Below are positions 26,095 through 48,231 of a stretch of DNA of 55,824 nucleotides, piece after piece; the stretch's first letter is position 1; every line of letters begins with the position of its first letter. Under the pieces are notes generated by a model. It was not told where the DNA came from and ran no database searches. It saw only the letters and a list, made by a program, of their open reading frames with translations. Source of the DNA: Bacteroidales bacterium (lineage in GTDB: Bacteria > Bacteroidota > Bacteroidia > Bacteroidales > Paludibacteraceae); contig JAAYQF010000029.1 of the NCBI GenBank assembly GCA_012519425.1, forward strand, positions 1 through 55,824, in the 5' to 3' direction. The position numbers and the translations under genes are program-made.

Positions 26095-26694
26095 ATGACA
26101 ATATCAGAAAAAGAGTTGATACGTCAGTTAAAACACGGTGAGGACAAAGCATACCGCTACCTGTACGATGTCTATTACGAAATGTTGTGTCGTGTTGCCT
26201 ATGAATACCTGAAAGATGATTTTTTAGCTGAAACCATTGTTGGTGATACAATATTTAATTTCTATGAAAAAAGACTGACAATTGAAATTCAATCCTCACT
26301 CAGAGCATATTTTGTTCGTGCTGTACGTAATCGCTGTATCAGCTATCTACGACTCAGCCATGTTTCAAAAGAAACAAAACTTCAGCCGTCCGATGATTTA
26401 CTAGAATCGGAAGCGATTCTTGCCATTGCAGAAAATCATCCACTCGACACTTTACTCGAAAAAGAACTCAAATCACAAATATCTATGAGTATCGAACAAT
26501 TGCCTGACAAATGTCGCACAGTTTTCAAAATGAATCGCCTCGAAAATCTGAATTACCAAGAAATATCAGAAAAACTAGACATCTCGGTTAATACTGTAAA
26601 ATATCACATGAAAAATGCTTTATCGAGACTTCATTCCGATCTAAAAAAATACTTGATAACCTGGTTATTACTTTTTTTATCCAATATTCTATAA
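26095..26694 (+). CDS. ECF-type RNA polymerase sigma factor
   Basis: This is a 199-residue sigma-70 family regulator. Region 2 lies at about residues 5-90 (E-L-I-R-Q-L-K-H-G-E-D-K-A-Y-R-Y-L-Y), and region 4 at about 125-185 (L-P-D-K-C-R-T-V-F-K-M and a helix-turn-helix Y-Q-E-I-S-E-K-L-D-I-S-V-N-T-V). It should be held by the FecR-family protein encoded next and released when the STN-domain receptor binds ligand, then turn on the SusC/D operon. The frame could start at 26029, but the promoter box there argues for ATG at 26095. A short hydrophobic tail (T-W-L-L-L-F-L-S-N-I-L) is unusual. Confidence 0.93.
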   Translation: MTISEKELIRQLKHGEDKAYRYLYDVYYEMLCRVAYEYLKDDFLAETIVGDTIFNFYEKRLTIEIQSSLRAYFVRAVRNRCISYLRLSHVSKETKLQPSDDLLESEAILAIAENHPLDTLLEKELKSQISMSIEQLPDKCRTVFKMNRLENLNYQEISEKLDISVNTVKYHMKNALSRLHSDLKKYLITWLLLFLSNIL

Positions 26695-26705
26695 CAACAA
26701 ACACC

Positions 26706-26729
26706 TGAATCAGGTCTTGAATCAGATCT
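26706..26729. repeat. Tandem 12-bp direct repeat between sigma and anti-sigma genes
   Basis: TGAATCAGGTCT is followed immediately by TGAATCAGATCT, one mismatch. A T-rich run follows (26729-26747), so a weak terminator or a binding site is possible. Confidence 0.4.
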
Positions 26730-26785
26730 CTTTTTATTTTTTTTCAATTCTCACTACCCCAATCAAATTTTAAAACGTCATCATA

Positions 26786-27832
26786 ATGAATAGGAAAATA
26801 ATAATGAAAAATATTAATACAAATATTGATATTGATGAATTAATTGCCGGATATTGTTCTAATGAACTCAGTGTAAATGAAATCGGCCATTTACGTGACT
26901 GGTTGAATTTATCACCCGATAACAAAAAATATTTTCAGCAACGATTACAAATCTGGTTTTTCGCTACTGTGACAAACGACAAAGTCCGCTTTGACAAAGA
27001 AAAAGCATTCGAGCTTTTCCTAACCCGCAAGGCAGCATCACTTCAAAAACAAGTTTTTACAGAAAAACGCTTACCTCTTATTGTTTTTCGACGTATTGTC
27101 GCAGCTATTGCCATATTGCTCATTTTCGCGGGTGCCGGATACTGGTTGGGTGCCGGACGTGTCAAGGACTTAATTGCGGAAGATGTAGTAATGGAAGTGC
27201 CTTTCGGTTCCCGTTCAAAAATGTATCTCCCCGACGGCACCCTGGTCTGGCTGAATGCCGGTTCTACCCTTTCTTATGCGCAGAATTTTGGAGTTAACAA
27301 TCGTACTGTTAATCTCAAAGGCGAAGGATATTTTGAAGTGGTACATCAAAAGAAAAAACCTTTTTATGTGATTAGCGATGACCTCAAAATACATGTACTC
27401 GGCACAAAATTCAATTTACGCAATTATTTAGAAGAAGATGAAGCTCGGATAACGCTGTTGGAAGGAAGTGTTAAAGTAAATTGCAACTCAGTATCACAGC
27501 AGGAATTTTATTTAAAGCCTCATGAACAAATTATATATGACCGAGAAACAGCGATTGCCCGAACAACACTAACAAATGCTTTAAATTCACTGGAGTGGAC
27601 AAATGGTTATTTGTTTTTCGACAAGGAAAAACTACCTAACATTGCTCGTGAGTTAGAAAGATCTTACAACGTAAAAATCAAAATTGCAGACGAATCGTTG
27701 AAAACATTCAGATTTTACGGTGATTTCTCAAGAACGGAGCAAACCATACAAGAAGTGCTAGAAGTACTTGCATCAACTAAAAGGTTAAGTTATGAAATAA
27801 ATGGGAAAGAAATTATACTTAAAAAAAAGTAA
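26786..27832 (+). CDS. FecR-family anti-sigma factor
   Basis: This is an inner-membrane anti-sigma protein of 348 residues. The N-terminal cytoplasmic part (I-D-E-L-I-A-G-Y-C-S-N-E-L-S) should bind the sigma factor, a single transmembrane helix lies at 103-122, and the periplasmic FecR domain runs from about 138 to 245 (V-P-F-G-S-R-S-K-M-Y-L-P-D-G-T-L-V-W-L-N). A DUF4974 domain ends the protein (L-E-R-S-Y-N-V-K-I). It contacts the STN domain of the SusC receptor across the periplasm. An alternative ATG at 26804 exists. It lies 91 bases after the sigma gene. Confidence 0.93.
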   Translation: MNRKIIMKNINTNIDIDELIAGYCSNELSVNEIGHLRDWLNLSPDNKKYFQQRLQIWFFATVTNDKVRFDKEKAFELFLTRKAASLQKQVFTEKRLPLIVFRRIVAAIAILLIFAGAGYWLGAGRVKDLIAEDVVMEVPFGSRSKMYLPDGTLVWLNAGSTLSYAQNFGVNNRTVNLKGEGYFEVVHQKKKPFYVISDDLKIHVLGTKFNLRNYLEEDEARITLLEGSVKVNCNSVSQQEFYLKPHEQIIYDRETAIARTTLTNALNSLEWTNGYLFFDKEKLPNIARELERSYNVKIKIADESLKTFRFYGDFSRTEQTIQEVLEVLASTKRLSYEINGKEIILKKK

Positions 27833-27985
27833 AACTAAAAATATAGAATACCATGCAATTGACAATACATCGACATTAGAAGATTAGATTTTTTATCGGA
27901 TAGCAATGCTGTGATATTAAGGATTGCACAATCGTGCATATCATTATTTGTAATAAAATCTTAATATATATTTAATCAAAACATA

Positions 27986-28016
27986 TTGGAGTAGGCATAT
28001 AGAAAACATAACTTTG
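27986..28016 (+). promoter_or_regulatory. Promoter upstream of susC
   Basis: TTG (27986-27988), 20 bases, TAACTTTG (28009-28016), 29 bases before the start codon. It looks like the housekeeping consensus; whether the ECF sigma uses it or another site in this 212-base leader is not visible. Confidence 0.55.
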
Positions 28017-28044
28017 AACACCAAATTTTTTAAAACAATCATTT

Positions 28045-31502: not shown

Positions 31503-31519
31503 CAACTAAAATTTACATT

Positions 31520-33007
31520 ATGAAAAAATATTTTAAATATCTATTAATTATATTGATTCCTGCTTTACTAAACAGCTGTGATTCGGAATTTCTGAATTTA
31601 AAAGACCCGAATGCATTCGATGTGTATAAGTTTTATCAAAGTGAGCAGGACATGGATGATGCCTTGTTGGCAGCTTATCAGGCTACACGGTCTTTCTACA
31701 ACTGGATGTTCTTTGTTACCGAAATGAAATCAGATAATGCTACTACTTTTGATTCAGGAACTTCAAGTGGATTGTACTATACCTTTGTTTCCCATCAGGT
31801 AACCTCGAACAATACCATAGTGGCAAACATCTGGAATGGATTGTACAATACCATTTATAAAGCCAACCTGGTACTCAAACACATTGACAAGGTAAAAATG
31901 AGCGATGAGAGTCGGGAAAGAATAATAGCTGAAGCAAAATTTCTACGGGGGCTGTCTCACTTCTACTTAGTGCGCTTATATGGACCTGTTCCGGTTGTCG
32001 ATAAGGTAGTCGAAACCATTACTGAGGCAAACGCCATGACCCGTCAACCAATATCTGATGCATACACCCTCATCATCAGCGACCTGGAAGCATTGGCAAA
32101 TTCAACTGTAGTGCCTGCATTCTATGATGCTAATAACGCAAACTTCGGTCGTGCAACAAGTACGGCAGGTGCAGCTTTACTTGGAAGGGTTTATCTCCAC
32201 ATGGCTGCCACACAGGGTAAAGATGAATATTATACCAATGCCATTACCTACCTGCAGAAAGCCATTACACTGAAAGGATATGATGACTTCCCTGCGGGAT
32301 CAACTTATCCCCGTGTTTTTGGAACATCCAACGAAGGTAATGAGGAAATCATTTTCCAGTGCATGTACCTGAGCACTTCAAGTGAATCATCTCCATTTGC
32401 ACAATACTTCCAGCCATTAGGATTGAAAGGTTTGACTTCTCAAATCGACGGGCGTGGGTTTAATGCCGGTCAGGAAAACCTGTTTTTGGAATATGAAACC
32501 GGTGACCGCCGTACTCCTATAGCCATCATGAAAGCGCCAAACAATCATTATTATACGAAAAAATACGTTGACTTATCGAATTCAACCGGTTACCATGGTA
32601 ACAACTGGATTGAAATTCGTTTTGCCGACGTATTTCTGATGCTGGCTGAAGCTTACGAAAAGAAAGGCATGACAAACGAAGCCAAGAGTTACTTAGACAA
32701 AGTACGTGTGCGCGCCAGTCTGCCTAAATACGATGCTTCAAACGCTGCTTATCACACCAAATATCCAACACTCCGGGATGCAATCTTCCACGAAAGAAGA
32801 GTTGAGTTATCGTTCGAAAACCAACGCTGGTTTGATCTGAGAAGAATGTATCCGGATGACAACGACTTTGTAACATTCATGCAAAGTGTGGAGGAACCTA
32901 ATGTTGGGAACAAATACACCGGCTTTAAAGCTTATGAAATTTTATTGCCACTACCTTATGATGAAGTGTTCCTGAATAAAAACCTGAATCAGAATGATGG
33001 ATATTAA
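31520..33007 (+). CDS. SusD/RagB outer-membrane lipoprotein
   Basis: This is a surface lipoprotein that captures the ligand over the SusC barrel. The leader ends L-L-N-S-C with Cys20; the mature N terminus S-E-F-L-N-L-K-D-P is typical. TPR-like helices run through the first half (A-K-F-L-R-G-L-S-H-F-Y-L-V-R), and the C-terminal R-V-E-L-S-F-E-N-Q-R-W-F-D-L-R-R motif is diagnostic for RagB/SusD. Length is 495 residues. It is intact even though its SusC partner is frameshifted. It starts 17 bases after susC and is followed by a long hairpin. Confidence 0.95.
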   Translation: MKKYFKYLLIILIPALLNSCDSEFLNLKDPNAFDVYKFYQSEQDMDDALLAAYQATRSFYNWMFFVTEMKSDNATTFDSGTSSGLYYTFVSHQVTSNNTIVANIWNGLYNTIYKANLVLKHIDKVKMSDESRERIIAEAKFLRGLSHFYLVRLYGPVPVVDKVVETITEANAMTRQPISDAYTLIISDLEALANSTVVPAFYDANNANFGRATSTAGAALLGRVYLHMAATQGKDEYYTNAITYLQKAITLKGYDDFPAGSTYPRVFGTSNEGNEEIIFQCMYLSTSSESSPFAQYFQPLGLKGLTSQIDGRGFNAGQENLFLEYETGDRRTPIAIMKAPNNHYYTKKYVDLSNSTGYHGNNWIEIRFADVFLMLAEAYEKKGMTNEAKSYLDKVRVRASLPKYDASNAAYHTKYPTLRDAIFHERRVELSFENQRWFDLRRMYPDDNDFVTFMQSVEEPNVGNKYTGFKAYEILLPLPYDEVFLNKNLNQNDGY

Positions 33008-33027
33008 ATAATAAAATAACAATATTC

Positions 33028-33069: not shown

Positions 33070-33104
33070 AAAGAAATAAATAAACAATTTTAGATTAAAA
33101 AAAT

Positions 33105-34889
33105 ATGAAAAAAATTACTTTATTAATGCTTTTTGCATTTACACTGTCCAACATGTATTCTGTGGATATTTCTTTGACAGAAGCATACAGCAATGTTGTC
33201 CAAACTAAGTCTGCACCATCCGATACAAAATGGAATGGTGATTATTTCGAATGGACAGTTTATAAAATCAGAAGAGGAACCAATGATAAATTTTCAGACA
33301 CACAAACACAAGCAAATTGGTTTGCTGCAGAAGGATATCTCTATTCTTCAGCAGCAGTAGAAGGAGGTATAAAGAATTTGTCAATAGATTGGTCACAATT
33401 TGGTGCAGAGTCAGGCATAACATTACGATTGATAATCACTATTGATGATGTCACAGTTGACTCAATCATTCGTGACGGCAATCTTGGCAAATGTGGAAAA
33501 CAAGTCTATACTAACACTGCCATAAACTCTAAGAAAAATGGTGTTCTCCGTTTAAACAACACCTCTTATACAACTGCAACCGGAGAGTTAGCTGCCAATG
33601 GTCGTTTTTTGATTGGTGATATTACCTGGACTCCATACCTTTGGTATCAGACAAAATCAGTAGCCATAGATGCAGGATCCAAATACACCAATACAAGTTT
33701 GATTAACAACTTAGATACAGACATGGATGTGCCCACTTATACAAGCAGTCATCCTCAATTTGCTACAGTTAATTCGGTAACAGGTGAGGTAACAGGTATT
33801 GCAGAAGGTACAACTACTATTACAGCTACCTCCGGTGATATTTCCGTAACTTACACGCTCTCTGTTAATCCCGACCTATTAGTTCCATCTTTTAATTATG
33901 AAAATAATTTCATCTATAAACTTTTAACGGATGTGCCTTTCACAAACACATTGACAAATAATTCGGATGGAACTGTTGCATATAGCAGTTCAAATACAGA
34001 TTGTGCAACAGTAAATACAAGTACGGGAGAAGTAACAATTCTTGCTGAAGGAACTACTACAATAACTGCATCAGTTCCTGAAACAGACAATTATCAGGCA
34101 GCAAGCGCTTCATATACCTTAGTAGTTAAACCCGCAAACTGGAAAATGGAAACATTTGACAATGAAACTACAACGGCATATTATACTTCCTCACCGGAAA
34201 CAGTTGTCGGCTCCCAGGCTAACTGGACAACTTATCTGGGAGGCATTCAGAAAAACACAAGTGCATTTCCCGGAACTAACGAAGGAGTTGCCATATTTAA
34301 AGCAAAATATCAGGATGCGGCTGAATACGCCTATTTGAAAAGCAGCACTATCTCAGGAGGAATTGACAGCCTTTGCTTTGCCTGGAATTCAAATGGAGTC
34401 GAAGGAACAGTAACCTGGGACATCCGCATACTTATCAACGACACTGAAGTTTACCAGTTTACTCAAGCAGGTAATGCAGCAATTCTTGAAGTTGCAGACA
34501 CAATAAAAGTTGGTAATCTTAAAATTGAAGGAAACTTTAACTTTAAGTTTATTAACATGTCAACAACCACAGATACATATACAAGTGGCAACAAAGGACG
34601 TTTTGCAATTAACGATTTACAATGGATTGGCTACAACGATCCAACAACCGTAAATGCACAAACTACTCACAAGTCATATATTTATCCTACACAGGTTAGT
34701 GACGTATTAAACATACAATCAACTTCAAAAGACTTTTTAGTAAAAATTTATAACCAGGTGGGAAGTCTGATTGCTGAATATGAAAATACAAATACAATCC
34801 CTTTCAGCAATTTTGCTGCGGGAATGTATATCGTCAGAATACAATCGGAAGACAAGGTGGATACTATTCAAAAGGTGTTAAAAAAATAG
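33105..34889 (+). CDS. Secreted T9SS-sorted protein with duplicated domain and Ig-like repeats
   Basis: This 594-residue protein has a signal peptide (M-K-K-I-T-L-L-M-L-F-A-F-T) and a T9SS type A sorting domain over the last 75 residues (I-Y-P-T-Q-V-S-D-V-L-N-I ... A-A-G-M-Y-I-V-R-I). Between them are an N-terminal domain (about 30-175), two bacterial Ig-like (BIG2) repeats at about 185-345 with V-T-G-E-V-T-G-I-A-E-G-T-T-T-I-T-A-T, and a second copy of the first domain at about 350-515; both copies close with G-R-F-x-I-x-D-x-x-W. No catalytic motif is seen, so it may be a substrate-binding surface protein. Confidence 0.82.
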   Translation: MKKITLLMLFAFTLSNMYSVDISLTEAYSNVVQTKSAPSDTKWNGDYFEWTVYKIRRGTNDKFSDTQTQANWFAAEGYLYSSAAVEGGIKNLSIDWSQFGAESGITLRLIITIDDVTVDSIIRDGNLGKCGKQVYTNTAINSKKNGVLRLNNTSYTTATGELAANGRFLIGDITWTPYLWYQTKSVAIDAGSKYTNTSLINNLDTDMDVPTYTSSHPQFATVNSVTGEVTGIAEGTTTITATSGDISVTYTLSVNPDLLVPSFNYENNFIYKLLTDVPFTNTLTNNSDGTVAYSSSNTDCATVNTSTGEVTILAEGTTTITASVPETDNYQAASASYTLVVKPANWKMETFDNETTTAYYTSSPETVVGSQANWTTYLGGIQKNTSAFPGTNEGVAIFKAKYQDAAEYAYLKSSTISGGIDSLCFAWNSNGVEGTVTWDIRILINDTEVYQFTQAGNAAILEVADTIKVGNLKIEGNFNFKFINMSTTTDTYTSGNKGRFAINDLQWIGYNDPTTVNAQTTHKSYIYPTQVSDVLNIQSTSKDFLVKIYNQVGSLIAEYENTNTIPFSNFAAGMYIVRIQSEDKVDTIQKVLKK

Positions 34890-34952: not shown

Positions 34953-35106
34953 GGTGTTTTAGAAATGTCTAAATGCAAGGTGCTGAGATTGAGGTCAGTA
35001 GGGCAGACCTGCGTGTCTGCTTTCGGTGTATGAGGCTGAATATCGAAAGTAACGTGGTTACTGAGCAAAGTCGAAGTGCAGCAGTTGAACAATATGAGAC
35101 AACGCC
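34953..35106 (+). mobile_element. MITE-like repeat, copy A
   Basis: The right half contains a 50-base block (35038-35087) identical to the reverse complement of 38521-38570. The left 35 bases (from GGTGTTTTAGAAATGTCTAA) match the other copy closely. The middle differs and holds a separate palindrome (GCAGAC/GTCTGC). Ends are degenerate inverted repeats. The copy lies inside the upstream extension of the next gene's frame, which is therefore not a real coding start. No transposase is nearby. Confidence 0.75.
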
Positions 35107-35119: not shown

Positions 35120-36268
35120 ATGAGCTATAAATATCATTACGTACTTTCATTCATATTATTTTTATTGCTAATAAGTGTAAGCAGCGTTCTTTTAGGACAG
35201 GGTTCCGACACCTTACGCATTGCAACTTACAATATTCGCTACGCCAACTCAAGTGATACAGGCAACAGAAATTGGTCGGTAAGAAAGACATTTGTAGGTA
35301 ATATCATCAAATCGAATCGTTTCGACATTTTCGGAGTACAAGAAATTGGTTCCGCAACGCAACAAAGTGACCTGATGACTCAACTGCCCGGATACAGCAT
35401 TTTTTGGAAGGGTAGAGGCAACAACGAAGGCACATCAGGAGAAAGAGTTGCAATTATTTACAGAACAAACCGCTTCCAAATGCTTGGGAGCGGATGGTTC
35501 TTTCTTTCTGAAACCCCTGATACTTACAGTGTCGGTTGGGATGCTCAATTAGCAAGAATTTGTATCTGGGCAAAAATGTATGATACCGTAACAGAAAAAG
35601 ATTTCTACTTTTTCAACACCCATTTTGATCATGTCGGTGCAGTAGCACGAGCTGAGTCTGCTAAGCTGGTTATCTCACGAATTAATAGTATTACAGCAAA
35701 TGATTCAGACTTGCCGGTATTTCTTACCGGAGATTTTAATTTTTCAACCGAGAACGGAACAACAGCCTATGTTGCCTTGCTTGAAGGTGGATTAAGTGAT
35801 AGTAGAAAAATAGTACCAAGAAGACAAATTACCGGTCCTGTAGGGACGGCCAACAGTTGGAATCTGACACCATCAGATATTACCGAGTCAAGAAGAATTG
35901 ATTTTATTTATTTAAATCAAAAATCAGAAGTGTTGTCATATACCACCATCGACACAAAGTACGTCAATGATGCTTATCCTTCAGATCATTTCCCGGTACT
36001 GATTACAGCAAGAGTAAAAAAAGCATCATCAGGACTAAGTAATAACTTAGCAGATGCAGGCTTGAAAATAAGCCATACTAATAACGGAATACGCATTTCA
36101 GGAGAAACACCTTTTACTTGCGAAATATACAACAGCATCGGTGTTCTAAAAGGAACCTCAAAGGGAAAAACAAATGACATCGCTTTTAAAGGTCTGGATA
36201 AAGGTATTTATATCATCAAAATAACTAACGGGCAGGCGACAGTCAGCTCTAAAATTATTACAAATTAA
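35120..36268 (+). CDS. Endonuclease/exonuclease/phosphatase-family enzyme with T9SS domain
   Basis: This is a secreted phosphoesterase of the EEP (DNase I/sphingomyelinase/inositol phosphatase) superfamily. From ATG 35120 it has 382 residues with a hydrophobic leader. Active-site residues are all present: Asn38 (T-Y-N-I-R), Glu75 (V-Q-E-I-G), His168 (N-T-H-F-D-H), Asp205 and Asn207 (G-D-F-N), Asp289 and His290 (P-S-D-H). The last 70 residues form a T9SS sorting domain (G-L-K-I-S-H-T-N-N-G-I-R-I-S), so it is delivered to the cell surface. The frame opens at 34973, but that region is the MITE-like repeat. Substrate could be a phosphodiester of a lipid, nucleic acid or glycan. Confidence 0.9.
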   Translation: MSYKYHYVLSFILFLLLISVSSVLLGQGSDTLRIATYNIRYANSSDTGNRNWSVRKTFVGNIIKSNRFDIFGVQEIGSATQQSDLMTQLPGYSIFWKGRGNNEGTSGERVAIIYRTNRFQMLGSGWFFLSETPDTYSVGWDAQLARICIWAKMYDTVTEKDFYFFNTHFDHVGAVARAESAKLVISRINSITANDSDLPVFLTGDFNFSTENGTTAYVALLEGGLSDSRKIVPRRQITGPVGTANSWNLTPSDITESRRIDFIYLNQKSEVLSYTTIDTKYVNDAYPSDHFPVLITARVKKASSGLSNNLADAGLKISHTNNGIRISGETPFTCEIYNSIGVLKGTSKGKTNDIAFKGLDKGIYIIKITNGQATVSSKIITN

Positions 36269-38719: not shown

Positions 38720-41203
38720 ATGAAAAAAATATTCTATTTTCTTCTTATTAGTTTTATTAGTTTTTTTGTGTTTACAACTCATGCATCCACCACGGAAGTT
38801 GACAGCATTACAGGTTTTGCCAAAACAAACACAGGAGATCCTATTCCCAATGCTGTTGTCAGCGACGGGTACGCCGTTGTTAAGACAGGATCCGATGGTT
38901 ATTATTCCTTTCCTCGTCACGACCGCACTGAATTTGTTTTTATCTCTGTCCCTGAAGCATACGAAATCCCTATGGGAAACGATGGGGCGCCTCAAATTTA
39001 TGCCCGGGTTTCAACATCGGGTAATTTTTCTCACAATTTTACCTTGGTTCCTTTTGCTGATGGTGGTGCAGCTGACTTTAACCATGTTATGATTGGTATT
39101 TCAGATCCTCAGGTCAGAAGGGACTATGAAACATGGCGCTTCAGGAATGAAACAATCAAAGACATTAAAGAATTAAAAGCATCCTACCCTGCCGGAACCC
39201 CATTTTACGGCGTGGTTGTAGGCGACTTGGTTTGGGACGATTACAAACGCCTGGAAGAACACAAAGCTTCTGTGGCAGGTACCGGTTTCCCCGTTTTCAA
39301 TGTAATAGGTAATCATGATCATGATATGACTAAATGTGGTGACATCGAGTCTGACCACTACTTTAAAGCCGCGTTTGGTCCTACTTATTACTCTTTCAAC
39401 AGAGGAAATATCCATTATGTAATGATGGACAATATCGATTACATTGGTTGCAATACAAAAAATTACACATGTAATATTACACAAAATCAGATTGATTGGT
39501 TGATTAAAGACCTTGCAGAAGTACCCATTGAAAAGACCATCGTACTCTCGGTACATGCACCCATGCATGGGTCGGGTGTGGCAAACAGACAGACAGTATA
39601 TAACCTGATGGGAGGCCGCAGAAACATACAACACATCATTGCCGGTCATCACCATTGTTTAACAAATAATGAAATAAGCACCAGACTTTTTGAACACGTA
39701 ATCGGTTCGGCAAATGGAGCACAATGGTCAGGTGACTATTGCGCCGATGGAGCTCCAAACGGTTATGGAGTATTTGAAGCAGGAGACAGAGGATTCAATA
39801 ACTGGTACTACAAAGCAACCGGGAAAAGTAAAGATTATCAATTTGAGGCTTATCCTACCGGAAGTTTCGGCGAAAGCAACGGCAAAGGCGATTATATTAT
39901 AGCCAATGTATGGAATTATGACAGCCGATGGAGCGTCAATATCTATGAAAATGGTGTAAAAAAAGTAATGCAACAGTTTACCGGTGTTGATCCCCGTATG
40001 TTTGACTTCCTTGGCAAAGAAGGAGATACACGCCCCAACTACCCCGGAAGTGATGGAGGAACTACAGCTTCTCAAAACCCGGGACCTTCTGCTACTCCTC
40101 ACATGTTCTCGTACAAACCAACAGATCCCGATGCTGAATTTATAGTTGAAGTTACCGATAGGTCCGGAAATGTGTATACAAAAAAACTGTTGCGTAATAT
40201 CATGGTCGCTTCTTTTGATAAAGAAGAGGATGAATATGTTTACCGTCAGAATTTCAACACACTACCCTTTTACCCTAATCACCTGTTGAAGGACAGAACG
40301 GCTAAAGGAACCTTTGTCCCCGGACATAGTCCTGAGGGTTGGTATATTACCACTTCCGGTAATATCCGTCCTTCAGGAAATATCATTCCAGACTGGTCAA
40401 CATTCAACTATTACCGCATCAACAACGGAGACCAAAATTCGGGTTGGATATATTCATACGGCGCAGGAAATCCAGCAGTTCCTAATGAACATTCAACAGA
40501 ACGTGCCCTGGGTTCTCTCATTTCCTCGACCCACCGTAACATCCATTTCGGAGTGATGATCGAGAATAACACCGGTGAAATTTTAAGCGAACTGGAAATT
40601 AATTACACCGGAGAAATGTGGCGTGCCGGATCTAATCCTGCAGATCAACAGACACTCACTTTCTCCTATGCTGTTAATCCTGACGCCAAAGCCATCCGTG
40701 AGAGAAGATTGTGGATTTCGGAGGTTGAAACTACAACCGTAGATTCTTTGTCGTTCGTTTCTCCGGTTAACAATACGGCGGCACAATCGGGATTGACCGA
40801 TGTTGCTATCGATGGGAATAATGCAGTCAACCGTGTTCGCATCAAAGGTAAAATTGACGCGCCAATTGCTCCGGGACAAGTGGTTTTACTCCGCTGGGAA
40901 GACATTGACGATTCCGGAAACGATCATGGACTTGCTATCGACAACCTTATTGTTAAAGCCATTCCAAAGAAAGCGAGCGGTATTGATGAATGGACTGAAA
41001 ATCTCAGTATGTTTTACAATATTGGAAAAAAAATATTCTTCACCGGAAACCAACATGAAAATAAATTAACAATTTATGACCTGACCGGTAAAATCATATT
41101 TCAAAAAACTACTCACGCCAACATATTGGATCTGACTGGCATAATCGATAACGGAGTTTTCATTGTGCGTGTTGGCAGCATAGCTAAAAAACTAGTGTTT
41201 TAA
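38720..41203 (+). CDS. Calcineurin-like metallophosphoesterase with T9SS domain
   Basis: This is an 827-residue secreted enzyme. Residues about 27-115 form a MetallophosN-like beta sandwich; the catalytic domain follows with Asp129 (S-D-P-Q), Asp169 (G-D-L-V), Asn198-His199-Asp200 (G-N-H-D), His279 (V-H-A-P-M-H-G) and His310-312 (G-H-H-H), the full set of dinuclear metal ligands. A MetallophosC-like domain and a further beta domain (about 505-745) precede a T9SS sorting domain (I-Y-D-L-T-G-K-I-I-F). Families with this layout act as phosphatases or phosphodiesterases. Next to the EEP enzymes and an organophosphate carrier it suggests release of phosphate or a phospho-moiety outside the cell. 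Confidence 0.9.
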   Translation: MKKIFYFLLISFISFFVFTTHASTTEVDSITGFAKTNTGDPIPNAVVSDGYAVVKTGSDGYYSFPRHDRTEFVFISVPEAYEIPMGNDGAPQIYARVSTSGNFSHNFTLVPFADGGAADFNHVMIGISDPQVRRDYETWRFRNETIKDIKELKASYPAGTPFYGVVVGDLVWDDYKRLEEHKASVAGTGFPVFNVIGNHDHDMTKCGDIESDHYFKAAFGPTYYSFNRGNIHYVMMDNIDYIGCNTKNYTCNITQNQIDWLIKDLAEVPIEKTIVLSVHAPMHGSGVANRQTVYNLMGGRRNIQHIIAGHHHCLTNNEISTRLFEHVIGSANGAQWSGDYCADGAPNGYGVFEAGDRGFNNWYYKATGKSKDYQFEAYPTGSFGESNGKGDYIIANVWNYDSRWSVNIYENGVKKVMQQFTGVDPRMFDFLGKEGDTRPNYPGSDGGTTASQNPGPSATPHMFSYKPTDPDAEFIVEVTDRSGNVYTKKLLRNIMVASFDKEEDEYVYRQNFNTLPFYPNHLLKDRTAKGTFVPGHSPEGWYITTSGNIRPSGNIIPDWSTFNYYRINNGDQNSGWIYSYGAGNPAVPNEHSTERALGSLISSTHRNIHFGVMIENNTGEILSELEINYTGEMWRAGSNPADQQTLTFSYAVNPDAKAIRERRLWISEVETTTVDSLSFVSPVNNTAAQSGLTDVAIDGNNAVNRVRIKGKIDAPIAPGQVVLLRWEDIDDSGNDHGLAIDNLIVKAIPKKASGIDEWTENLSMFYNIGKKIFFTGNQHENKLTIYDLTGKIIFQKTTHANILDLTGIIDNGVFIVRVGSIAKKLVF

Positions 41204-41220: not shown

Positions 41221-42510
41221 ATGGAAAAAGATGTAAAAAGTCTGAGAAGAACAGGTGTATTCTGGGCTGTAACAATTGGTTACGGACTATTCTATGTAAC
41301 CCGTTTAAGTTTAAATGTTTTAAAAAAGTCAATTGTTGATGAAAGCATTCTAACTGAATCTCAGCTTGGGATGGTAGGCTCTGCCTTGTTCTTCACTTAC
41401 GCAATTGGTAAATTGTTGAATGGATTTCTTGCCGACCGGGTGAATATTCGTTACTTCATGGCAATATCTCTTTTAATTTGTTCAGTTGTCAATATTCTAC
41501 TTGGATTTCAAACTGCATTCTGGTTTTTCCTGATATTGTGGACACTTAACGGATGGTTCCAATCCACAGGAGCAGTCAGTAGTATCATTGCCCTTAAAAG
41601 GTGGTATCCACCTCACAGGATAGGTACGGTTTACGGCTTCTGGAGTGCCAGCCATAACATCGGAGAAGCCATTACATTTACCTTCACTGCATTTGTTGTA
41701 GGAGCCCTGGGATGGCAATGGGGATTTTGGAGTGCTGGTTTTTTAGGCTTGCTGGGGGTTTTACTGATTTTCTTTTTCTTGATCCCAAGACCATCAGCTT
41801 CCAAAGATGCATTTCAAGAGCAACTCGTGCTTAAACAGCAAAACATTGGTCTGAAACAATTAGAGGTACTTAAAAACCCAATGATCTGGGTATTGGCACT
41901 CAGTAGCGCTTTTATGTATATTGCTCGTTATGCTGTAAATAGCTGGGGGATATTCTATTTCGAAACAGAAAAGGGATATACGGTACTGGAAGCCAGTTCG
42001 CTCATATCAATCAGTTCTATTTTCGGAATATTTGGGACTATCTTCTCCGGACTATTTTCTGATAAATTATTCAAAGGAGACCGAACCATTCCTGCAATAC
42101 TCATGTCAGCACTGAATTTATTTGCATTATTGCTATTCCTGTTGGTTCCTGCCGGATATTACTACATCGACATTATCAGCATGGTATTGTTCGGAATTTC
42201 CATCGGAGTACTGATTTGCTTCCTTGGTGGTTTGATGGCTGTTGACATCGCTCCGAAAGAAGCTGTAGGTGCTGCTGCAGGTGTAATCGGAATTGCCAGC
42301 TATATTGCTGCAGGTGTACAGGATGTCCTCAGTGGTTTCCTCATCGAAGGTAAAAAAACAATTGTTGATGGTATCACTACATATAACTTTAATAACATCC
42401 GCTATTTCTGGCTGACGGCTGCAGCATTATCTCTTACCTTATTGATTGTCATTGCGGGGAGACATCAGAAAGCCCAAAAACAATCACAGGAAAATTATAC
42501 AAAAGTTTAG
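41221..42510 (+). CDS. MFS transporter, organophosphate:phosphate antiporter type (GlpT/UhpT-like)
   Basis: This is a 429-residue inner-membrane carrier with 12 predicted helices. The start has the OPA-family pattern G-Y-G-L-F-Y-V-T-R-L with Arg28, and helix 7 has M-Y-I-A-R-Y-A-V-N-S-W-G with Arg236; these correspond to the two phosphate-binding arginines of GlpT (Arg45 and Arg269). Other marks are F-F-T-Y-A-I-G-K-L-L-N-G-F-L-A-D-R. It should exchange a phosphorylated sugar or glycerol-3-phosphate for inorganic phosphate. It starts 18 bases after the phosphoesterase and 21 before the next EEP gene, so it belongs to this operon. A membrane-bound sensor role, as in UhpC, is the main alternative. 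Confidence 0.9.
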   Translation: MEKDVKSLRRTGVFWAVTIGYGLFYVTRLSLNVLKKSIVDESILTESQLGMVGSALFFTYAIGKLLNGFLADRVNIRYFMAISLLICSVVNILLGFQTAFWFFLILWTLNGWFQSTGAVSSIIALKRWYPPHRIGTVYGFWSASHNIGEAITFTFTAFVVGALGWQWGFWSAGFLGLLGVLLIFFFLIPRPSASKDAFQEQLVLKQQNIGLKQLEVLKNPMIWVLALSSAFMYIARYAVNSWGIFYFETEKGYTVLEASSLISISSIFGIFGTIFSGLFSDKLFKGDRTIPAILMSALNLFALLLFLLVPAGYYYIDIISMVLFGISIGVLICFLGGLMAVDIAPKEAVGAAAGVIGIASYIAAGVQDVLSGFLIEGKKTIVDGITTYNFNNIRYFWLTAAALSLTLLIVIAGRHQKAQKQSQENYTKV

Positions 42511-42530
42511 TATTTAAAAATAAAATATAA

Positions 42531-43382
42531 ATGAAAACACATATAAAAAAATTGACACTGTTATCTGTATGCATCAGCACATTGAGTTTGATGTCGTTTG
42601 GATGTAAACCCACTGATCATAAATTACCCAAAGATAATATCCGCCTGGCAGTATATAACATTCGTGGGGAAGATCCGAATGATGGGGTAAATCTTTGGAA
42701 GTTCAGAAAAGACTCGTTAATTAAGATTGTTCTGAAGAACAACATGGAAATTGTGGGGCTTCAAGAAGCTGTTCAATTTCAATTAGAAGATATTGTGGCC
42801 GGAACTTCGTATAAGTTCGTAGGAAAAGAAGGTTTGTTTAATCCAGTTATTTATGACGGAAAACGTTTCGAGGCCATTGAATGGGACATGTTCTGGCTAA
42901 ATGAAAACAACGAGCCGGAGGTAAAAGGTTGGGACGGAAAATATGCCCGCTACTGTACCTGGGTAAAATTTAAAGACAAAAAGACCCAAAAAGAATTTTA
43001 TTTCTTTAATACCCATTTTGATCATCGGGGGCTGATGGCTAAGACCAACAGTGCTACACTCATCAGTAAAGAAGCAAAAAAGATTGCAGGCAATACTCCT
43101 TTCTTAATCGGAGGTGATCTGAATAGTAAATCAAATACAGAAGCTTATCGGATTCTGTCGGAGAATTTTACAGACGCAAGAAAAGCAGCGCCACAGGAAA
43201 GAGTGTATGGTCCGGTTGGAACCGCTCATAACTTTGGTGGCGTACATCCGGTGCAAATTGATTACATCTTCGTCGCACCTAAAATTAAAATACACACCTA
43301 TCGGGCAATTGATGAGGCGTATGAAAACGACTTGTTTCCTTCCGACCACTATCCGGTATATGTGGATTTAACCATTAAGTAG
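42531..43382 (+). CDS. EEP-family phosphoesterase, predicted lipoprotein (second copy)
   Basis: This 283-residue enzyme has a lipobox M-S-F-G-C with Cys25. Catalytic residues are intact: Asn43, Glu79 (L-Q-E-A), His162 (N-T-H-F-D-H-R-G), Asp196 and Asn198 (G-D-L-N), Asp272 and His273 (P-S-D-H). It lacks a sorting domain, so it should be anchored to a membrane, inner face of the outer membrane or surface, in contrast to the T9SS-sorted copy at 35120. It shares the F-N-T-H-F-D-H core with the next gene and follows the carrier gene by 20 bases. Confidence 0.92.
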   Translation: MKTHIKKLTLLSVCISTLSLMSFGCKPTDHKLPKDNIRLAVYNIRGEDPNDGVNLWKFRKDSLIKIVLKNNMEIVGLQEAVQFQLEDIVAGTSYKFVGKEGLFNPVIYDGKRFEAIEWDMFWLNENNEPEVKGWDGKYARYCTWVKFKDKKTQKEFYFFNTHFDHRGLMAKTNSATLISKEAKKIAGNTPFLIGGDLNSKSNTEAYRILSENFTDARKAAPQERVYGPVGTAHNFGGVHPVQIDYIFVAPKIKIHTYRAIDEAYENDLFPSDHYPVYVDLTIK

Positions 43383-43447
43383 GTTATTACCCCAACTTTG
43401 ACGAACAATTATTAAATCAACATTTCAAACAATAAAACAATATTATC

Positions 43448-44281
43448 ATGAGAAAATTATTTATAGTAATCATAACCATTCCGTTTCTATTTAGTTGTGT
43501 CAAAAAAACAGAAAACAAAACGACTCTCCGCGTTATGTCATTTAATATCCGTTACGACGAACCTAAGGATGGTGAGAATAACTGGAAATTCCGCCGTCAG
43601 GCTTGTGTGGATATGATCAACGATCAACAACCCGATGTTTTTGGTATTCAGGAAGGACTCATACATCAGGTTAACTTCCTGGATTCAGCATTGGCTGATT
43701 TTGCTTTTGTTGGTGAGGGACGCGATAGTTCAGTAAAAAACAATGAATACACGGCATTGTTTTACAATACCGGTAAATTTGACTTGTTAAGTTCGGGAAC
43801 AAACTGGTTAAGTGAAACACCTGAAGTTTCTTCAAGAGGCTGGGATGCCAAATACAATCGCATAGTGACCTGGGCACATCTTAAAAATAAGAGTAACAAC
43901 AAAAAATTTATCGTCCTGAACACCCATTTTGACCATCGCGGAGTTCAGGCACGTATTGAGTCAGCAAAATTCATAGTTCAAAAAGCGGCTGAATTATCCG
44001 GAGACACACTTATGACCTTTGTTATAGGAGACTTTAATACCCTGCCTAATGATTCATTACTTGACCCTATCTATCAATATCTCGAATCATCCCAGTCAAC
44101 TGCTGCGATAACAGATTCATTAGGTACCACAAATGAATTTAAAGTTACACAGGAAGGCAAAATCATTGATTACATCTTTTATCGTTTTGCTGCGCCAATC
44201 CAGTACCAAACCATCGTAAAGGATTACGGAGTTCCCTATATTTCAGATCACTACCCGATTATGACAATTTTTGAGTATTAA
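43448..44281 (+). CDS. EEP-family phosphoesterase, predicted lipoprotein (third copy)
   Basis: This 277-residue protein has a short leader with lipobox L-F-S-C (Cys17). The active site is complete: Asn33 (F-N-I-R-Y-D), Glu69 (I-Q-E-G), His160 (N-T-H-F-D-H-R-G), Asp195 and Asn197 (G-D-F-N), Asp267 and His268 (S-D-H). It carries the motif E-P-K-D-G-E-N-N-W-K-F-R-R, common in Bacteroidota EEP enzymes that occur in glycan loci. It is 65 bases after its neighbour. Three EEP enzymes in one locus with different anchoring suggest successive steps on the same substrate. Confidence 0.92.
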   Translation: MRKLFIVIITIPFLFSCVKKTENKTTLRVMSFNIRYDEPKDGENNWKFRRQACVDMINDQQPDVFGIQEGLIHQVNFLDSALADFAFVGEGRDSSVKNNEYTALFYNTGKFDLLSSGTNWLSETPEVSSRGWDAKYNRIVTWAHLKNKSNNKKFIVLNTHFDHRGVQARIESAKFIVQKAAELSGDTLMTFVIGDFNTLPNDSLLDPIYQYLESSQSTAAITDSLGTTNEFKVTQEGKIIDYIFYRFAAPIQYQTIVKDYGVPYISDHYPIMTIFEY

Positions 44282-44341
44282 AGACATTTTAGACACAAAA
44301 ACACAATTACTTATTTGCAAATCATCTAAATATACAGCTTT

Positions 44342-47300
44342 ATGAAAACACGAAAATTCATTTTGTTTTTATGTATTTTACAGATACAAGCTGTTATTGT
44401 TGCACAAAATAATTGGTATGTCAAAGCAACAGGTACGTCTTCAGAAAACAGCGGTGTAAACTGGGAAAGTGCGATTTCACTCAATGACGCGCTGGCCCGT
44501 TCATCGGAGGGTGATTCTATTCATATTGCAGCGGGAACATACATACCACAAATTTTATTAACCAATGGTAGGGTTGAGAGGGAAAAATGTTTTGAAATTA
44601 AAAATAACATTGCTCTTATTGGAGGTTATCCTGCCGATGCCTCTGGCCATGTTCAATCAGAACCTACTATGCATCATACAATATTAAGCGGTCAGTTAAA
44701 CTCTGAACTGAATGCTTACCACGTATTGGTAATAACTGCCGCACCGAAAAGAGACAAGTCTGTGAAATTATCGGGTCTGATTGTTCGTGATGGAATAGCC
44801 GATAATACACGTAGGACAACTATTGATAATATTGTTTATCAGCAGGGTGTTGGAGGTGGACTTATCACTGAAAGGGGAAATGTAGATATCTCCGATTGTG
44901 TTTTCACAAATAATAAAGCCTTTGACGGTGCCGGATGCTGGATTCAGAACGCAACACTGAATGTCCGGAATTCGAAAATCATCGGCAATTCCACTTCCAG
45001 GGGGAAAGCAGGAGGAATTTACCTGAACCGGGTTTCATTTAATATGGAACAGGTAATCGTTTCAGACAATTTTGCAGAAACCGATGGAGGGGGCATTTAC
45101 CTGGTTGGTTCCAATGGTTATGTCAATCAGGGACTCATTGTCGGAAATACGGTTAACAATAGTGCGGGTGGTGTTTTAGCAGCTGCTTCATCTACCGTTT
45201 ATTTGCACAATGTTACGATAGGACATAACGAAGCAAAAACAAACGGAGGAATCTTGCTTGAAAACACCTTTATGTCAATGGCTAATAGCACAATTGCAGA
45301 AAATACTGCCTTTGAGAGTGGAGGTGCAGGTGGTATTAGTGACAACTCTCGAATTGAGGCAACAAGTTCAACCATTACCCGAAATAGTGCTCACAACAGT
45401 GCCGGTGGATTTATAATGGGAGGAAACGGTGTTCTAAACTGTTATAATTCAATTTTATCCGGAAATGGTGTCGAAATCGAAGTTGTGACCGGAACAATAT
45501 CGACGTCCAAGTTTTACCAATCGATTTTTGACACACAATATTACAACGTCAATGGAAAACCCGATAGCCAAATATCTTTTGATGCGGATATCATGTTGGA
45601 CTCTCTTAGAGACAACGGGGGTTTTACCCCAACATGTAAAATACTTCATCCCGAAACGAATCCTGTCAATACCGAAGGATTGACACTTTCCGAAATGACC
45701 CTGTTGGCAAGCCGATACGGGTTGCCTGGTTTTGTATTTCTTAAAGATCAACGAGGAAAGGACAGATTAACCAGCAACATTGCCATTGGTGCATATCAAG
45801 ATTCAGTTTTTACACGACCCATTCATCCTGATTTCTGGCACTTCATCATCTATGGACAAAGTTTGGCTGAGGGATATCAATCATATCCCTCAATAACATC
45901 GGAGCCGGTTCCCAACAACTATATGATAGGGAGCAATGTCTGTATTAACAATGGGAATAGAAACTTCAATCAAATTGCTCCTTTATTTTCATCTCCCACT
46001 CCGGATGATGTAGAACGGAACTTCACAAGATCGTGGACCGACGCATCAAAATGTGAAAACTCCGTTGTTGGTGCTGCCAATCATATACAAAACAAACTTA
46101 CCCAACCGATTTCAATTTTAGCTACCTCCTGTGCCACCGGAGGTAAAACAATAGAAGAACTCTCAAAGCACAGCCAACGATCACCCTATTATTATCATCG
46201 TGATTTTATAAAAAGCATCAGTAGCGCAGCTTCTTTCATTAAAAGAAACAATTATAACATTGAATGTCCGGCTATTTTTTGGATACAGGGAGAACAAAAT
46301 TACTCACGAAATCAACCTGGTTTAATAACCCTTAATGGTAGTACAACAGATAAGTCGGAATACAAAAATCTGATGTTAACACTAAAGAATGATATGCAAT
46401 CGGATATCATGAGCTTATACGGTCAACAGGAAAAACCTCTGTTTATTACTTATCAGGTTGGAGGGAAGTACATCAAGGGATTTGAACAAAACATAGCGAT
46501 GGCACAACTCGAAGCCTCTAATCAGGAAGCAGATATCATATGTGCCGGACCTGTATATTTGATGACCGATCGGGATGCAGGTCATTTAGATCCAAATGGT
46601 TATCGATGGTTCGGAGAAATGTTGGCCAAGGTTTTTTATAAAACCTATATTGAAAAAGAAACATTTACGCCCTTGCAACCTTCAAAAATTACCAAAGAGA
46701 ATAATCATACATTGCGGATTGATTATCTGGTACCCTGCAAACCACTTGTTTTAGACACCCTGTTGGTTGCTTTTGAGAAAGATTTCGGTTTCGCTATAAA
46801 AAATAATGGTTCATTGGTAAACATAAACTCCGTCACTTTACACGAAAATGGCGAAAGTGTTTTAATTTCTTGTTTTGACGAACTTAACGGAGATATTGAA
46901 ATTGCCTATGCCGGACAGGACGTATTGGGACATGGAAATCTTCGCGATAGTGACCCCTATCAATCTATCTATACCTACGTCGATTTGGATGGTAAAGACG
47001 AAAATGGTGAATATATTTTTGAGCATGATGCCAACAACACGTCATTACATCCACGATATGAACCTCGCGATGAGAACGGAGTTATTTATGGAAAACCATA
47101 TCCTTTGTTTAATTTCAGCACACATTTTTATTATAAGTTACCGGCGGGAGCAACGGAATTAATTCCACCAAGCTTATTAGATAACACAGATATTCCGGCT
47201 GTAAAAGAGAATTCATCTGCTGTAAAGTTAATTCATCATGATTATTGTCAAATACAGATATCAGGAGACTGGAGGCATGCACATTTTTATGATGTATCCG

Positions 47301-47428
47301 GAAAATTATGTCAGGAAACAACAAATAACACAGGTATTATCAATACTGGCTCATTGGTTACCGGAATTTATATCATACAAGTTTTTGAGAATAACAATAT
47401 ATATAATTTAAAATATCTACGTTTATAA
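44342..47428 (+). CDS. Beta-helix protein fused to a SASA-type esterase, with T9SS domain
   Basis: This is a 1028-residue secreted protein. Residues about 22-485 form a right-handed parallel beta-helix (repeated G-G-G/A-G-G-I patterns, pectin-lyase-like fold). Residues about 495-780 form an SGNH/SASA (sialate O-acetylesterase-like) esterase with Ser507 (Y-G-Q-S-L-A-E-G), the G-E-Q-N block, and D-A-G-H-L-D-P-N-G-Y carrying His748. The last 65 residues are a T9SS sorting domain (T-G-I-Y-I-I-Q-V-F). The esterase should remove acyl groups from a glycan or related substrate; the helix probably binds or cleaves it, but no lyase residues can be assigned. Confidence 0.85.
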   Translation: MKTRKFILFLCILQIQAVIVAQNNWYVKATGTSSENSGVNWESAISLNDALARSSEGDSIHIAAGTYIPQILLTNGRVEREKCFEIKNNIALIGGYPADASGHVQSEPTMHHTILSGQLNSELNAYHVLVITAAPKRDKSVKLSGLIVRDGIADNTRRTTIDNIVYQQGVGGGLITERGNVDISDCVFTNNKAFDGAGCWIQNATLNVRNSKIIGNSTSRGKAGGIYLNRVSFNMEQVIVSDNFAETDGGGIYLVGSNGYVNQGLIVGNTVNNSAGGVLAAASSTVYLHNVTIGHNEAKTNGGILLENTFMSMANSTIAENTAFESGGAGGISDNSRIEATSSTITRNSAHNSAGGFIMGGNGVLNCYNSILSGNGVEIEVVTGTISTSKFYQSIFDTQYYNVNGKPDSQISFDADIMLDSLRDNGGFTPTCKILHPETNPVNTEGLTLSEMTLLASRYGLPGFVFLKDQRGKDRLTSNIAIGAYQDSVFTRPIHPDFWHFIIYGQSLAEGYQSYPSITSEPVPNNYMIGSNVCINNGNRNFNQIAPLFSSPTPDDVERNFTRSWTDASKCENSVVGAANHIQNKLTQPISILATSCATGGKTIEELSKHSQRSPYYYHRDFIKSISSAASFIKRNNYNIECPAIFWIQGEQNYSRNQPGLITLNGSTTDKSEYKNLMLTLKNDMQSDIMSLYGQQEKPLFITYQVGGKYIKGFEQNIAMAQLEASNQEADIICAGPVYLMTDRDAGHLDPNGYRWFGEMLAKVFYKTYIEKETFTPLQPSKITKENNHTLRIDYLVPCKPLVLDTLLVAFEKDFGFAIKNNGSLVNINSVTLHENGESVLISCFDELNGDIEIAYAGQDVLGHGNLRDSDPYQSIYTYVDLDGKDENGEYIFEHDANNTSLHPRYEPRDENGVIYGKPYPLFNFSTHFYYKLPAGATELIPPSLLDNTDIPAVKENSSAVKLIHHDYCQIQISGDWRHAHFYDVSGKLCQETTNNTGIINTGSLVTGIYIIQVFENNNIYNLKYLRL

Positions 47429-47472
47429 ATCAGAAACATTCAATTTCAAACAATTTAAAATTCAAACACATC

Positions 47473-48231
47473 ATGAAAAAGAAATTTACACTTATCTTTT
47501 TGGTCATTTTCACTTGCTTATATGGTCAAAATACTGAATTTATAAGTATCACTCTTGATTCGGATCAATACAAACAACTTGAACAGCACTTTGCGGAAAA
47601 AGAAAAAGCAAAAATGCGATCAACTGATTGGGCGCGTTTCTATCGATACGAAGCTATGAACGATTCGATGCAGAAACCCGCCAAGGTGGTTTTTCTGGGA
47701 AATTCAATTACTGAAGGGTGGTATAGACAACATCCGGAATTTTTTATTGAAAATGGGTTTACCGCTCGTGGAATCGGTGGACAAACAACCAGTCATATGC
47801 TCGCTCGTTTTCAGGCGGATGTCATTGATCTGAAACCCAAGATGGTTGTTATCATGGCCGGAACCAACGACATTGCCCGTAATAACGGCATTATCAGCCA
47901 TAAGCATATCATGCAAAACATCAAATCGATGTGTGAGTTGGCTCAGTTTCACAAAATAAAACCGGTATTGTGCTCCATATTGCCTGCCCATGAATTCAGG
48001 TGGAACAAGGAACTAAACCCGGCTGCCGACATTAAATTGCTGAATGATATGATCAAGGCATATGCCGATGCCAATAAGATTCCTTTTGTCGATTACTATT
48101 CGGCCTTAGTAGATGAACGTGGAGGATTACCGGTTGAAATTGCTGCTGATGGCGTACATCCCAACATGGAAGGTTACGCAATCATGGAACCGATTGTGTT
48201 GAAGACTATCCGGAAATATGTAAAAAAATAG
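47473..48231 (+). CDS. SGNH/GDSL-family hydrolase, secreted
   Basis: This 252-residue protein has a signal peptide (M-K-K-K-F-T-L-I-F-L-V-I-F). All four block residues are present: Ser78 (L-G-N-S-I-T-E-G-W), Gly102/103 (G-I-G-G-Q-T-T), Asn132 (M-A-G-T-N-D) and Asp226/His229 (D-G-V-H-P-N). The family includes carbohydrate acetylesterases, platelet-activating-factor acetylhydrolases and lysophospholipases, any of which would suit an acylated phosphoester substrate. It closes the locus, 44 bases after the esterase fusion, and faces argC. Confidence 0.93.
   Translation: MKKKFTLIFLVIFTCLYGQNTEFISITLDSDQYKQLEQHFAEKEKAKMRSTDWARFYRYEAMNDSMQKPAKVVFLGNSITEGWYRQHPEFFIENGFTARGIGGQTTSHMLARFQADVIDLKPKMVVIMAGTNDIARNNGIISHKHIMQNIKSMCELAQFHKIKPVLCSILPAHEFRWNKELNPAADIKLLNDMIKAYADANKIPFVDYYSALVDERGGLPVEIAADGVHPNMEGYAIMEPIVLKTIRKYVKK

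Follow-up and report, generated by a model that had tools for sequence, protein, structure and literature searches.

A SusCD locus of phosphoesterases, esterases and an organophosphate-type carrier in a Paludibacteraceae genome: a possible uptake system for an acylated phosphoglycan

Gene content of the locus

We analyzed a stretch of 55,824 nucleotides, hereafter the window, from contig JAAYQF010000029.1 of a Paludibacteraceae genome (Bacteroidales; assembly GCA_012519425.1; 2.39 Mb in 142 contigs, 94.7% complete). Positions 26095–48231 on its plus strand contain all named parts of a locus built around SusC and SusD. The row starts at the ATG of a gene for an extracytoplasmic function (ECF) sigma factor (26095, the first ATG of the domain, in an open reading frame (ORF) opening at 26029). 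It continues with FecR, SusC, SusD, a Big_2 protein, the EEP-domain phosphoesterase EEP1, an SBBP propeller, a calcineurin-type phosphoesterase, an organophosphate-type (OPA) carrier of the MFS family, EEP2, EEP3, and two esterases of the SASA and GDSL types, with intergenic gaps of 17–229 bases (Table 1). The G+C content is 39.4% within the locus and 39.1–39.2% outside it.

Domains were called with Pfam and NCBIfam/TIGRFAM hidden Markov models (HMMs). The models bear out an original prediction, made from the letters of the sequence, that a sigma factor, FecR, SusD, three EEP enzymes, a calcineurin-type enzyme, an OPA-type carrier and two esterases lie on one strand and form a SusCD locus based on phosphoesterases, carrier and esterases. 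Two further secreted proteins, Big_2 and SBBP, stand in the row beyond those listed in that prediction. As had also been predicted, none of the 14 ORFs here matches a glycoside hydrolase (GH) family (Pfam, E ≤ 0.001). Compared with a polysaccharide utilization locus (PUL), the row has adjacent susC and susD genes, with SusC in two frames in this assembly, and Pfam recognizes no associated glycoside hydrolases or lyases, SASA being an esterase family. Two established locus types were rejected: (i) a typical yeast-mannan PUL, as Pfam finds neither GH92 nor any other GH in the locus, and (ii) a sialic-acid (NanOU) locus, as SusD scores 50.5 bits against the NanU model NF033072 (cut-off 425) and Pfam finds no sialidase or lyase.

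Table 1. Features of the locus, with the models that identify them
Feature	Coordinates	Strand	Evidence
ECF sigma factor (Bacteroidota type)	26095..26694	+	TIGR02985 156.5 bits (cut-off 126.4)
FecR-type anti-sigma factor	26786..27832	+	PF04773, PF16344 over cut-off
SusC part 1, N-terminal 932 aa	28045..30843	+	TIGR04056 700.5 bits, model 3-782
SusC part 2, other frame, C-terminal 202 aa	30894..31502	+	TIGR04056 153.3 bits, model 794-981
SusD-type surface lipoprotein	31520..33007	+	PF07980, PF14322
Secreted Big_2 protein, T9SS tail	33105..34889	+	PF02368; TIGR04183 31.2 bits (cut-off 23)
EEP1, T9SS tail	35120..36268	+	PF03372; TIGR04183 32.8 bits (cut-off 23)
SBBP beta-propeller protein, T9SS-like tail	36307..38490	+	NF047494 73.3 bits (cut-off 400)
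Calcineurin-type phosphoesterase, N- and C-terminal accessory domains	38720..41203	+	PF16371-PF00149-PF16370 over cut-off
OPA/UhpC-type MFS carrier	41221..42510	+	MFS_1 169.8 bits; TIGR00881 245.1 bits
EEP2, probable periplasmic or lipoprotein phosphoesterase	42531..43382	+	PF03372
EEP3, probable periplasmic or lipoprotein phosphoesterase	43448..44281	+	PF03372
SASA-type SGNH acetylesterase, long N-terminal region	44342..47428	+	PF03629 36.7 bits
GDSL/SGNH acylhydrolase	47473..48231	+	PF13472 99.5 bits

The nearest solved relatives of EEP1–3 are four EEP proteins from Bacteroides and Enterococcus (4c1r, 3g6s, 3mpr and 3l1w), one of which is named as the mannosyl-6-phosphatase BT3783 of B. thetaiotaomicron (4c1r) and presumably belongs to a mannan PUL. 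EEP1 is closest to 3mpr and 4c1r (E 6.1e-43 for 4c1r), and EEP3 matches 3g6s (E 1.2e-43) and 4c1r (2.3e-37). A Foldseek search with the AlphaFold2 (AF2) model of EEP2 (pLDDT 90.5) returns 3g6s, 3mpr, 4c1r and 3l1w at the top. Both sequence and fold place the enzymes nearest the kin of 4c1r with the active-site residues kept, that is, in the BT3783-like group of EEP sugar phosphatases. The group shares its invariant residues with EEP1–3 but is only about 30% identical to EEP2, and 4c1r occurs in none of the OPA loci listed. For EEP1 the start at 35120 is more likely than the opening of its ORF at 34973, from a signal peptide judged by eye. The whole genome holds 11 EEP domains, and two large EEP-domain ORFs (768 and 663 aa) lie near each other on another contig.

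Weak NCBIfam matches of the EEPs to MnuA and exonuclease III, all far under cut-off, could point to extracellular nucleases and to salvage of nucleic acids, which have been proposed as substrates of some phosphodiesterase-containing SusCD loci (Lapebie et al. 2019, PMC6499787; this and the other papers are cited here from excerpts). Nucleic-acid salvage is highly improbable, and we rejected the nuclease assignment on the nearest solved relatives, which form the Bacteroides EEP group including a sugar phosphatase, and on the EEP2 fold search; moreover, such salvage gives no role to the two esterases and the OPA-type carrier.

In the calcineurin-type protein the residues D129-x-Q131, D169, N198-H199-D200, H279, H310 and H312 are in place. 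The usual motif of this family is D-x-H; here the Q of D-x-Q is invariant in the protein's alignments, a variant that may be ADPRibase-Mn-like. The protein has no sequence relative in the PDB at E ≤ 0.001, and its structure model (pLDDT 50) is too poor for a fold search. The SASA protein carries GQSLAEG at 505, QGEQN at 649 and DAGHLDP at 745, presumably its active-site blocks, and the GDSL protein carries GNSIT at 76, GTND at 130 and DGVHP at 226 (3p94, E 5e-70). Tails of the type IX secretion system (T9SS) score over cut-off in the Big_2 protein, which has no known catalytic domain, and in EEP1; they fall slightly under it in the SBBP (TIGR04183 22.2 bits, just below the cut-off of 23), calcineurin-type (21.2 bits) and SASA proteins.

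Conserved gene order and a near-copy in another family

When the gene order was sought in other genomes, synteny was found to be conserved in three loci (L037, L040 and L041) and in one further genome (G143), so one objection that the original prediction had itself raised, conservation merely of unrelated genes without synteny, fails. The order SusC-SusD-SBBP-calcineurin-OPA-EEP is repeated in L037, from an uncultured Bacteroidales metagenome-assembled genome (MAG), and in L040, from a Paludibacteraceae MAG, with proteins 39–66% identical to those of the window (SusD 54% in both; SBBP 40%, at the same position). The EEP portion in these two loci matches EEP3 at 40–41% and is fused to a GDSL domain, the counterpart of which is a separate downstream gene in the window. 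In L041 (Bacteroides salyersiae) the row reads FecR-SusC-SusD-two SBBP-like-OPA-EEP-EEP.

G143, from another family of Bacteroidales, contains a copy with SusC, SusD, SBBP, the calcineurin-type enzyme, EEP2, EEP3, SASA and GDSL, pieces of which are 86.9–88.7% identical to the window at the DNA level. This copy is without the sigma factor, FecR, the Big_2 protein (also absent from L037 and L040) and EEP1, and without a carrier between the calcineurin-type gene and EEP2; the sole carrier relative elsewhere in that genome is 27% identical. Because the row proteins are 85–93% identical between window and G143 (SusD 93%), compared with 70% for the single housekeeping control, RsmI, the sequences suggest that the locus was transferred between families. 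Loss of the carrier in G143 would be the simpler history, since L037 and L040 hold it at the same place, and its absence from the copy implies that the module can do without it. Across nine stretches compared between the window and the G143 copy, the ratio of nonsynonymous to synonymous substitution rates (dN/dS) is 0.06–0.22, indicating purifying selection. Together, the order in L037 and L040 and these ratios show that the locus is conserved beyond chance.

The prediction was right that SusC (TIGR04056) and SusD (PF07980/PF14322) are present; it overlooked that SusC is broken into two frames. SusC is a single ORF in L037, L040, L041 and G143, and two ORFs in two further carrier loci, L031 and L049. 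Part 1 is 88.9% identical in amino acids to the one-ORF SusC of G143 with a dN/dS of 0.12, and part 2 has a dN/dS of 0.09; the break is therefore either recent or an assembly error. A genuine break could mean that this strain has lost uptake.

Within the order, a carrier at E ≤ 1e-150 is present in five of 393 genomes, the window's included, and a close SBBP protein only in the window and G143 among the same 393, no more than two candidates being scored in each genome. Nine genomes from the family of G144 yielded no carriers of the window's clade beyond the two known.

The carrier, its subfamily and its clade

The carrier scores best with the OPA model TIGR00881, below the curated cut-off of 407.75, and its best solved relatives are GlpT (1pw4, E 4e-34) and SLC37A4. 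Both predicted arginines are present: R28 and R236, together with H145, align to their counterparts in GlpT 1pw4, which we take to bind phosphate. R28 is kept in six of six aligned carriers, and the second arginine in five, with a lysine in L035.

We collected the best 80 of at least 544 confirmed carrier relatives from a scan of named genomes; without one duplicate, 79 loci were counted. SusD occurs in 42 of them, a glycerophosphodiester phosphodiesterase (GDPD) in 50 and an EEP in 23. The GDPD counts were not taken from the single-linkage neighbor cluster, which mixes in SGNH hydrolases (for example in L046 and L047). Loci longer than 15 kb (n = 52, leaving out 28 of the 80: those not above this length, and the duplicate L095) were compared with 38 control stretches of 20 kb, hand-picked at round contig positions in 19 genomes after a stretch of 457 bases had been dropped: SusC 29 vs 11, SusD 31 vs 6, EEP 17 vs 0 and GDPD 33 vs 0, respectively, related loci being treated as independent in the Fisher tests. 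Judged by these SusC and SusD counts, it is common rather than odd for carriers of this kind to lie in a SusCD locus, and the earlier claim that this is unusual does not hold.

The commonest arrangement in the subfamily, SusC-SusD-(PQQ/PKD protein)-GDPD(DUF4996)-OPA (L044–L099 and others), is widespread in Bacteroidota and also found in some other phyla; it looks to be a locus for the use of glycerophosphodiesters or teichoic-type polymers. These loci share with the window the carrier subfamily and its placement at the 3' side of the SusCD row, but a GDPD and a PQQ/PKD surface protein replace the window's EEP, calcineurin-type enzyme and SBBP. One more distant row, L146 (G041:C43), unites SusC-SusD, an OPA-like carrier 28% identical to that of the window, and two calcineurin-type relatives (32–34%).

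In a tree of 82 carriers, from which L029 (= L043), L084 (= L033) and L095 (= L094) were left out, the window and nine loci (L037–L042 and L046–L048) form one clade with a support of 100/100, which amounts to one change on the tree. EEP2 is 49, 54 and 45% identical to its relatives in L038, L041 and L042, respectively. Next to the carrier in seven of the nine clade relatives stand genes for an N-acetylmannosamine-6-phosphate (ManNAc-6-phosphate) epimerase, NanE, and a hexose-phosphate mutase (PGM); this link spans Bacteroides, Alistipes, Barnesiella and rumen lineages. The NanE proteins of L041 (243.4 bits) and L047 (232.8 bits) exceed the curated cut-off of 189. An eighth relative, L037, has a NagB-like gene 10 bases past its EEP-GDSL gene (974.6 bits, cut-off 384), and the ninth, L040, a PF01636 kinase at the corresponding place. 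Outside the clade, neither NanE (0/70) nor NagB (0/70) was found. The NanE counts were made without an overlap rule, as an over-long PGM reference otherwise masks NanE in L046–L048, and the searches for NagB and for the kinase used a single reference apiece, from the locus of first sighting. The L041 row OPA-EEP-EEP-NanE-PGM closes with an AXE1 acetylesterase.

These neighbors narrow the four targets of the original prediction (phospholipid, glycerophosphodiester, teichoic-type polymer or phosphorylated glycan), which were too wide. A locus for glycerophosphodiesters, phospholipids or teichoic acids that imports glycerol-3-phosphate would be in keeping with GDPD in 50 of the 79 loci and with L031, a single SusCD locus that unites GDPD, GDSL, EEP and carrier. 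The sister loci, with GDPD in 50 of 70, suit glycerophosphodiesters and polymers like them; the window's locus and its nine clade relatives contain none (0/9), so for this clade we rejected a phospholipid or glycerophosphodiester target, and we regard this reading of the window as very unlikely. A phosphorylated glycan is the target that the mannosyl-6-phosphatase kin of the EEPs and the hexosamine-phosphate neighbors of the clade support, and a phosphoglycan locus, rather than one for phospholipids or glycerophosphodiesters, appears from the sequences to be the best reading.

Elsewhere in the window, positions 12068–12145 on the minus strand match the Bacteroidetes small RNA family FopS in Rfam (70.8 bits), and genes for an NAD-dependent epimerase, a UDP-glucose dehydrogenase, a sugar transferase and a glycosyltransferase at 49719–54245 perhaps mark the edge of an exopolysaccharide cluster.

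A candidate route for phosphorylated hexosamines

Based on these observations, we tentatively propose that this SusCD system takes up an O-acylated phosphoglycan and imports N-acetylhexosamine phosphate. We give this proposal somewhat under an even chance, because its support comes from relatives and not from the window itself. We infer all reactions and locations, the transport direction and the identity of the sugar as follows. The T9SS-exported surface proteins (Big_2, EEP1, SBBP, and probably the calcineurin-type and SASA proteins) would bind and trim the glycan, and SusCD would move the pieces into the periplasm, where SASA and GDSL would strip acyl groups and EEP2, EEP3 and the calcineurin-type enzyme would cleave phosphoester bonds. 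The OPA-type carrier would import the freed sugar phosphate into the cytoplasm, probably in exchange for phosphate, as first suggested. The imported compound would most likely be an N-acetylhexosamine phosphate, either N-acetylglucosamine-6-phosphate (GlcNAc-6-phosphate), ManNAc-6-phosphate or a 1-phosphate, and would then pass to NagA and NagB; since the sugar would enter already phosphorylated, no kinase would be needed. The window genome encodes NagA (306.6 bits, over cut-off) and four NagB-like PF01182 proteins over cut-off, one of which adjoins NagA, while the best (231.3 bits) lies on another contig, so GlcNAc-6-phosphate should be usable.

Several observations weigh against this proposal. 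(i) The window's own locus contains no hexosamine gene, and the best NanE candidate in its genome scores 19.8 bits (cut-off 27); ManNAc-6-phosphate is not usable there by the NanE route, barring a gene within the 5% of the genome that the assembly lacks. Among 36 genomes of the genus, NanE is over cut-off in one, and there only partly. (ii) The seven occurrences of NanE in the clade are not seven independent events, being inherited within one clade, and require two changes on the carrier tree. (iii) The other neighbors are loosely assigned: PGM matches no single equivalog over its cut-off, the L040 kinase is a PF01636 protein that could be anything, and the NagB-like gene of L037 may serve another system. 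(iv) The EEP fold is silent on mono- versus diesterase activity, since nocturnin and TDP2 (15–18% identity) come next after seven EEP chains in the structural search with EEP2. (v) 4c1r indicates mannose rather than hexosamine, and in G017 (L043), outside the window's clade, the carrier and an EEP stand with GH130 and GH92.

The last point bears on a locus for phosphomannan or another mannose-6-phosphate glycan, in which the carrier would import mannose-6-phosphate. The match of EEP1–3 to 4c1r, the GH92 gene near the carrier in L064, and the row in G017 (Paludibacter sp. SZUA-536, also recorded as L029/L030) agree with it; in this last genome, of the same genus as the window's, GH130-EEP-OPA, GH92 and a SusCD pair with two more EEPs perhaps make up a phosphomannan locus. 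Pfam finds neither GH92, GH130 nor any further mannan enzyme in the window's locus, the GH92 loci fall outside the window's carrier clade, and NanE acts, by its family name, on ManNAc-6-phosphate and not on mannose-6-phosphate. We consider mannose-6-phosphate import by the window's locus quite unlikely.

G143, the genome with the near-copy, gives a further hint. Upstream of its SusC lie phosphotransferase system (PTS) genes for EIIA, EI and an EIIBC that is of the GlcNAc type (TIGR01998, 563.8 bits, cut-off 553.2); the window genome has no PTS EIIC. If the link is real, the window lineage would import a sugar phosphate and the G143 lineage would phosphorylate the sugar on entry, both reaching GlcNAc-6-phosphate. 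This hint has its own counterweight: 4.5 kb encoding an M20 peptidase and a GH31 separate the PTS from SusC, and GH141, GH2 and an alpha-galacturonidase are also near it (C12:44000-83999), so it possibly belongs to another system.

SusCD loci rich in phosphoesterases have been published before, also with inner-membrane organophosphate transporters (PMC8115612, PMC6499787). The PUS/PusCD clusters of Flavobacterium combine SusCD, phosphomono- or diesterases and inner-membrane organophosphate transporters, and one of them, PUSIII, adds a sigma factor and FecR (Lidbury et al. 2020, PMC8115612), so the carrier's presumed rarity is also contradicted in print; the PusCD idea was taken up again by Lidbury et al. 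2022 (PMC8812569). In the window, too, SusCD is co-located with phosphoesterases. The locus could by this likeness be a phosphate-scavenging PUS, with broad enzymes, phosphate as the wanted product and expression under phosphate starvation. Compared with the PUS clusters as described in those excerpts, the window adds three EEPs of the sugar-phosphatase group, an enzyme with MetallophosN/C domains and the SASA and GDSL esterases, and its relatives add hexosamine-phosphate enzymes. Carbon use is suggested instead by the esterases and by the sugar-phosphate enzymes that neighbor the carrier within the closest clade, and we regard phosphate scavenging as unlikely. Of 14,713 CAZyme-free SusC/D loci in the survey of Lapebie et al. 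(PMC6499787), 576 carry phosphodiesterases; they share with the window SusCD, a PF00149 phosphoesterase and the absence of glycoside hydrolases, but PF00149 and PF01663 were counted there, nucleic acids were suggested, and the excerpts mention neither a carrier nor a link to amino sugars. In the open-licence literature we found no description of a SusCD locus that combines an OPA carrier and hexosamine-phosphate enzymes, and the excerpts of a paper on B. fragilis PhoB (PMC3547664) hold nothing pertinent to the locus. Overall, the earlier interpretation is partly supported: it was right on phosphoester chemistry, too wide on the target and wrong on rarity.

A narrower form of the phosphoglycan proposal, which we regard as doubtful, is that the loci of the window's clade are dedicated to consuming polymers of O-acetylated N-acetylhexosamine phosphate, as in some bacterial capsules (poly-ManNAc-1-phosphate, poly-GlcNAc-1-phosphate). 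A polymer of alpha-ManNAc-1-phosphate-6 units with O-acetyl groups, of this chemical type, is described in an excerpt from a review of capsular phosphoglycans (PMC12348895). Here, phosphodiesters would be cut to sugar 1-phosphates, which the carrier would import intact and the mutase and ManNAc-6-phosphate epimerase would convert to GlcNAc-6-phosphate. If so, Bacteroidota would graze the phosphate-linked coats of other bacteria, and the GDPD-carrying sister loci would do likewise for glycerol-phosphate polymers.

SusCD loci without recognized carbohydrate enzymes number in the thousands (14,713 in the survey above, PMC6499787), mostly without a known substrate. For one group of them, the neighbors of the carrier clade take the label "phosphoesterase SusCD locus" further, to a proposal that can be tested and that names an intermediate, N-acetylhexosamine phosphate. 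The near-copy in G143 offers a natural experiment in which the carrier has apparently been lost and a GlcNAc-type PTS is near. If the phosphoglycan proposal is true, Bacteroidota would use phosphate-linked glycans for carbon, and not just for phosphorus.

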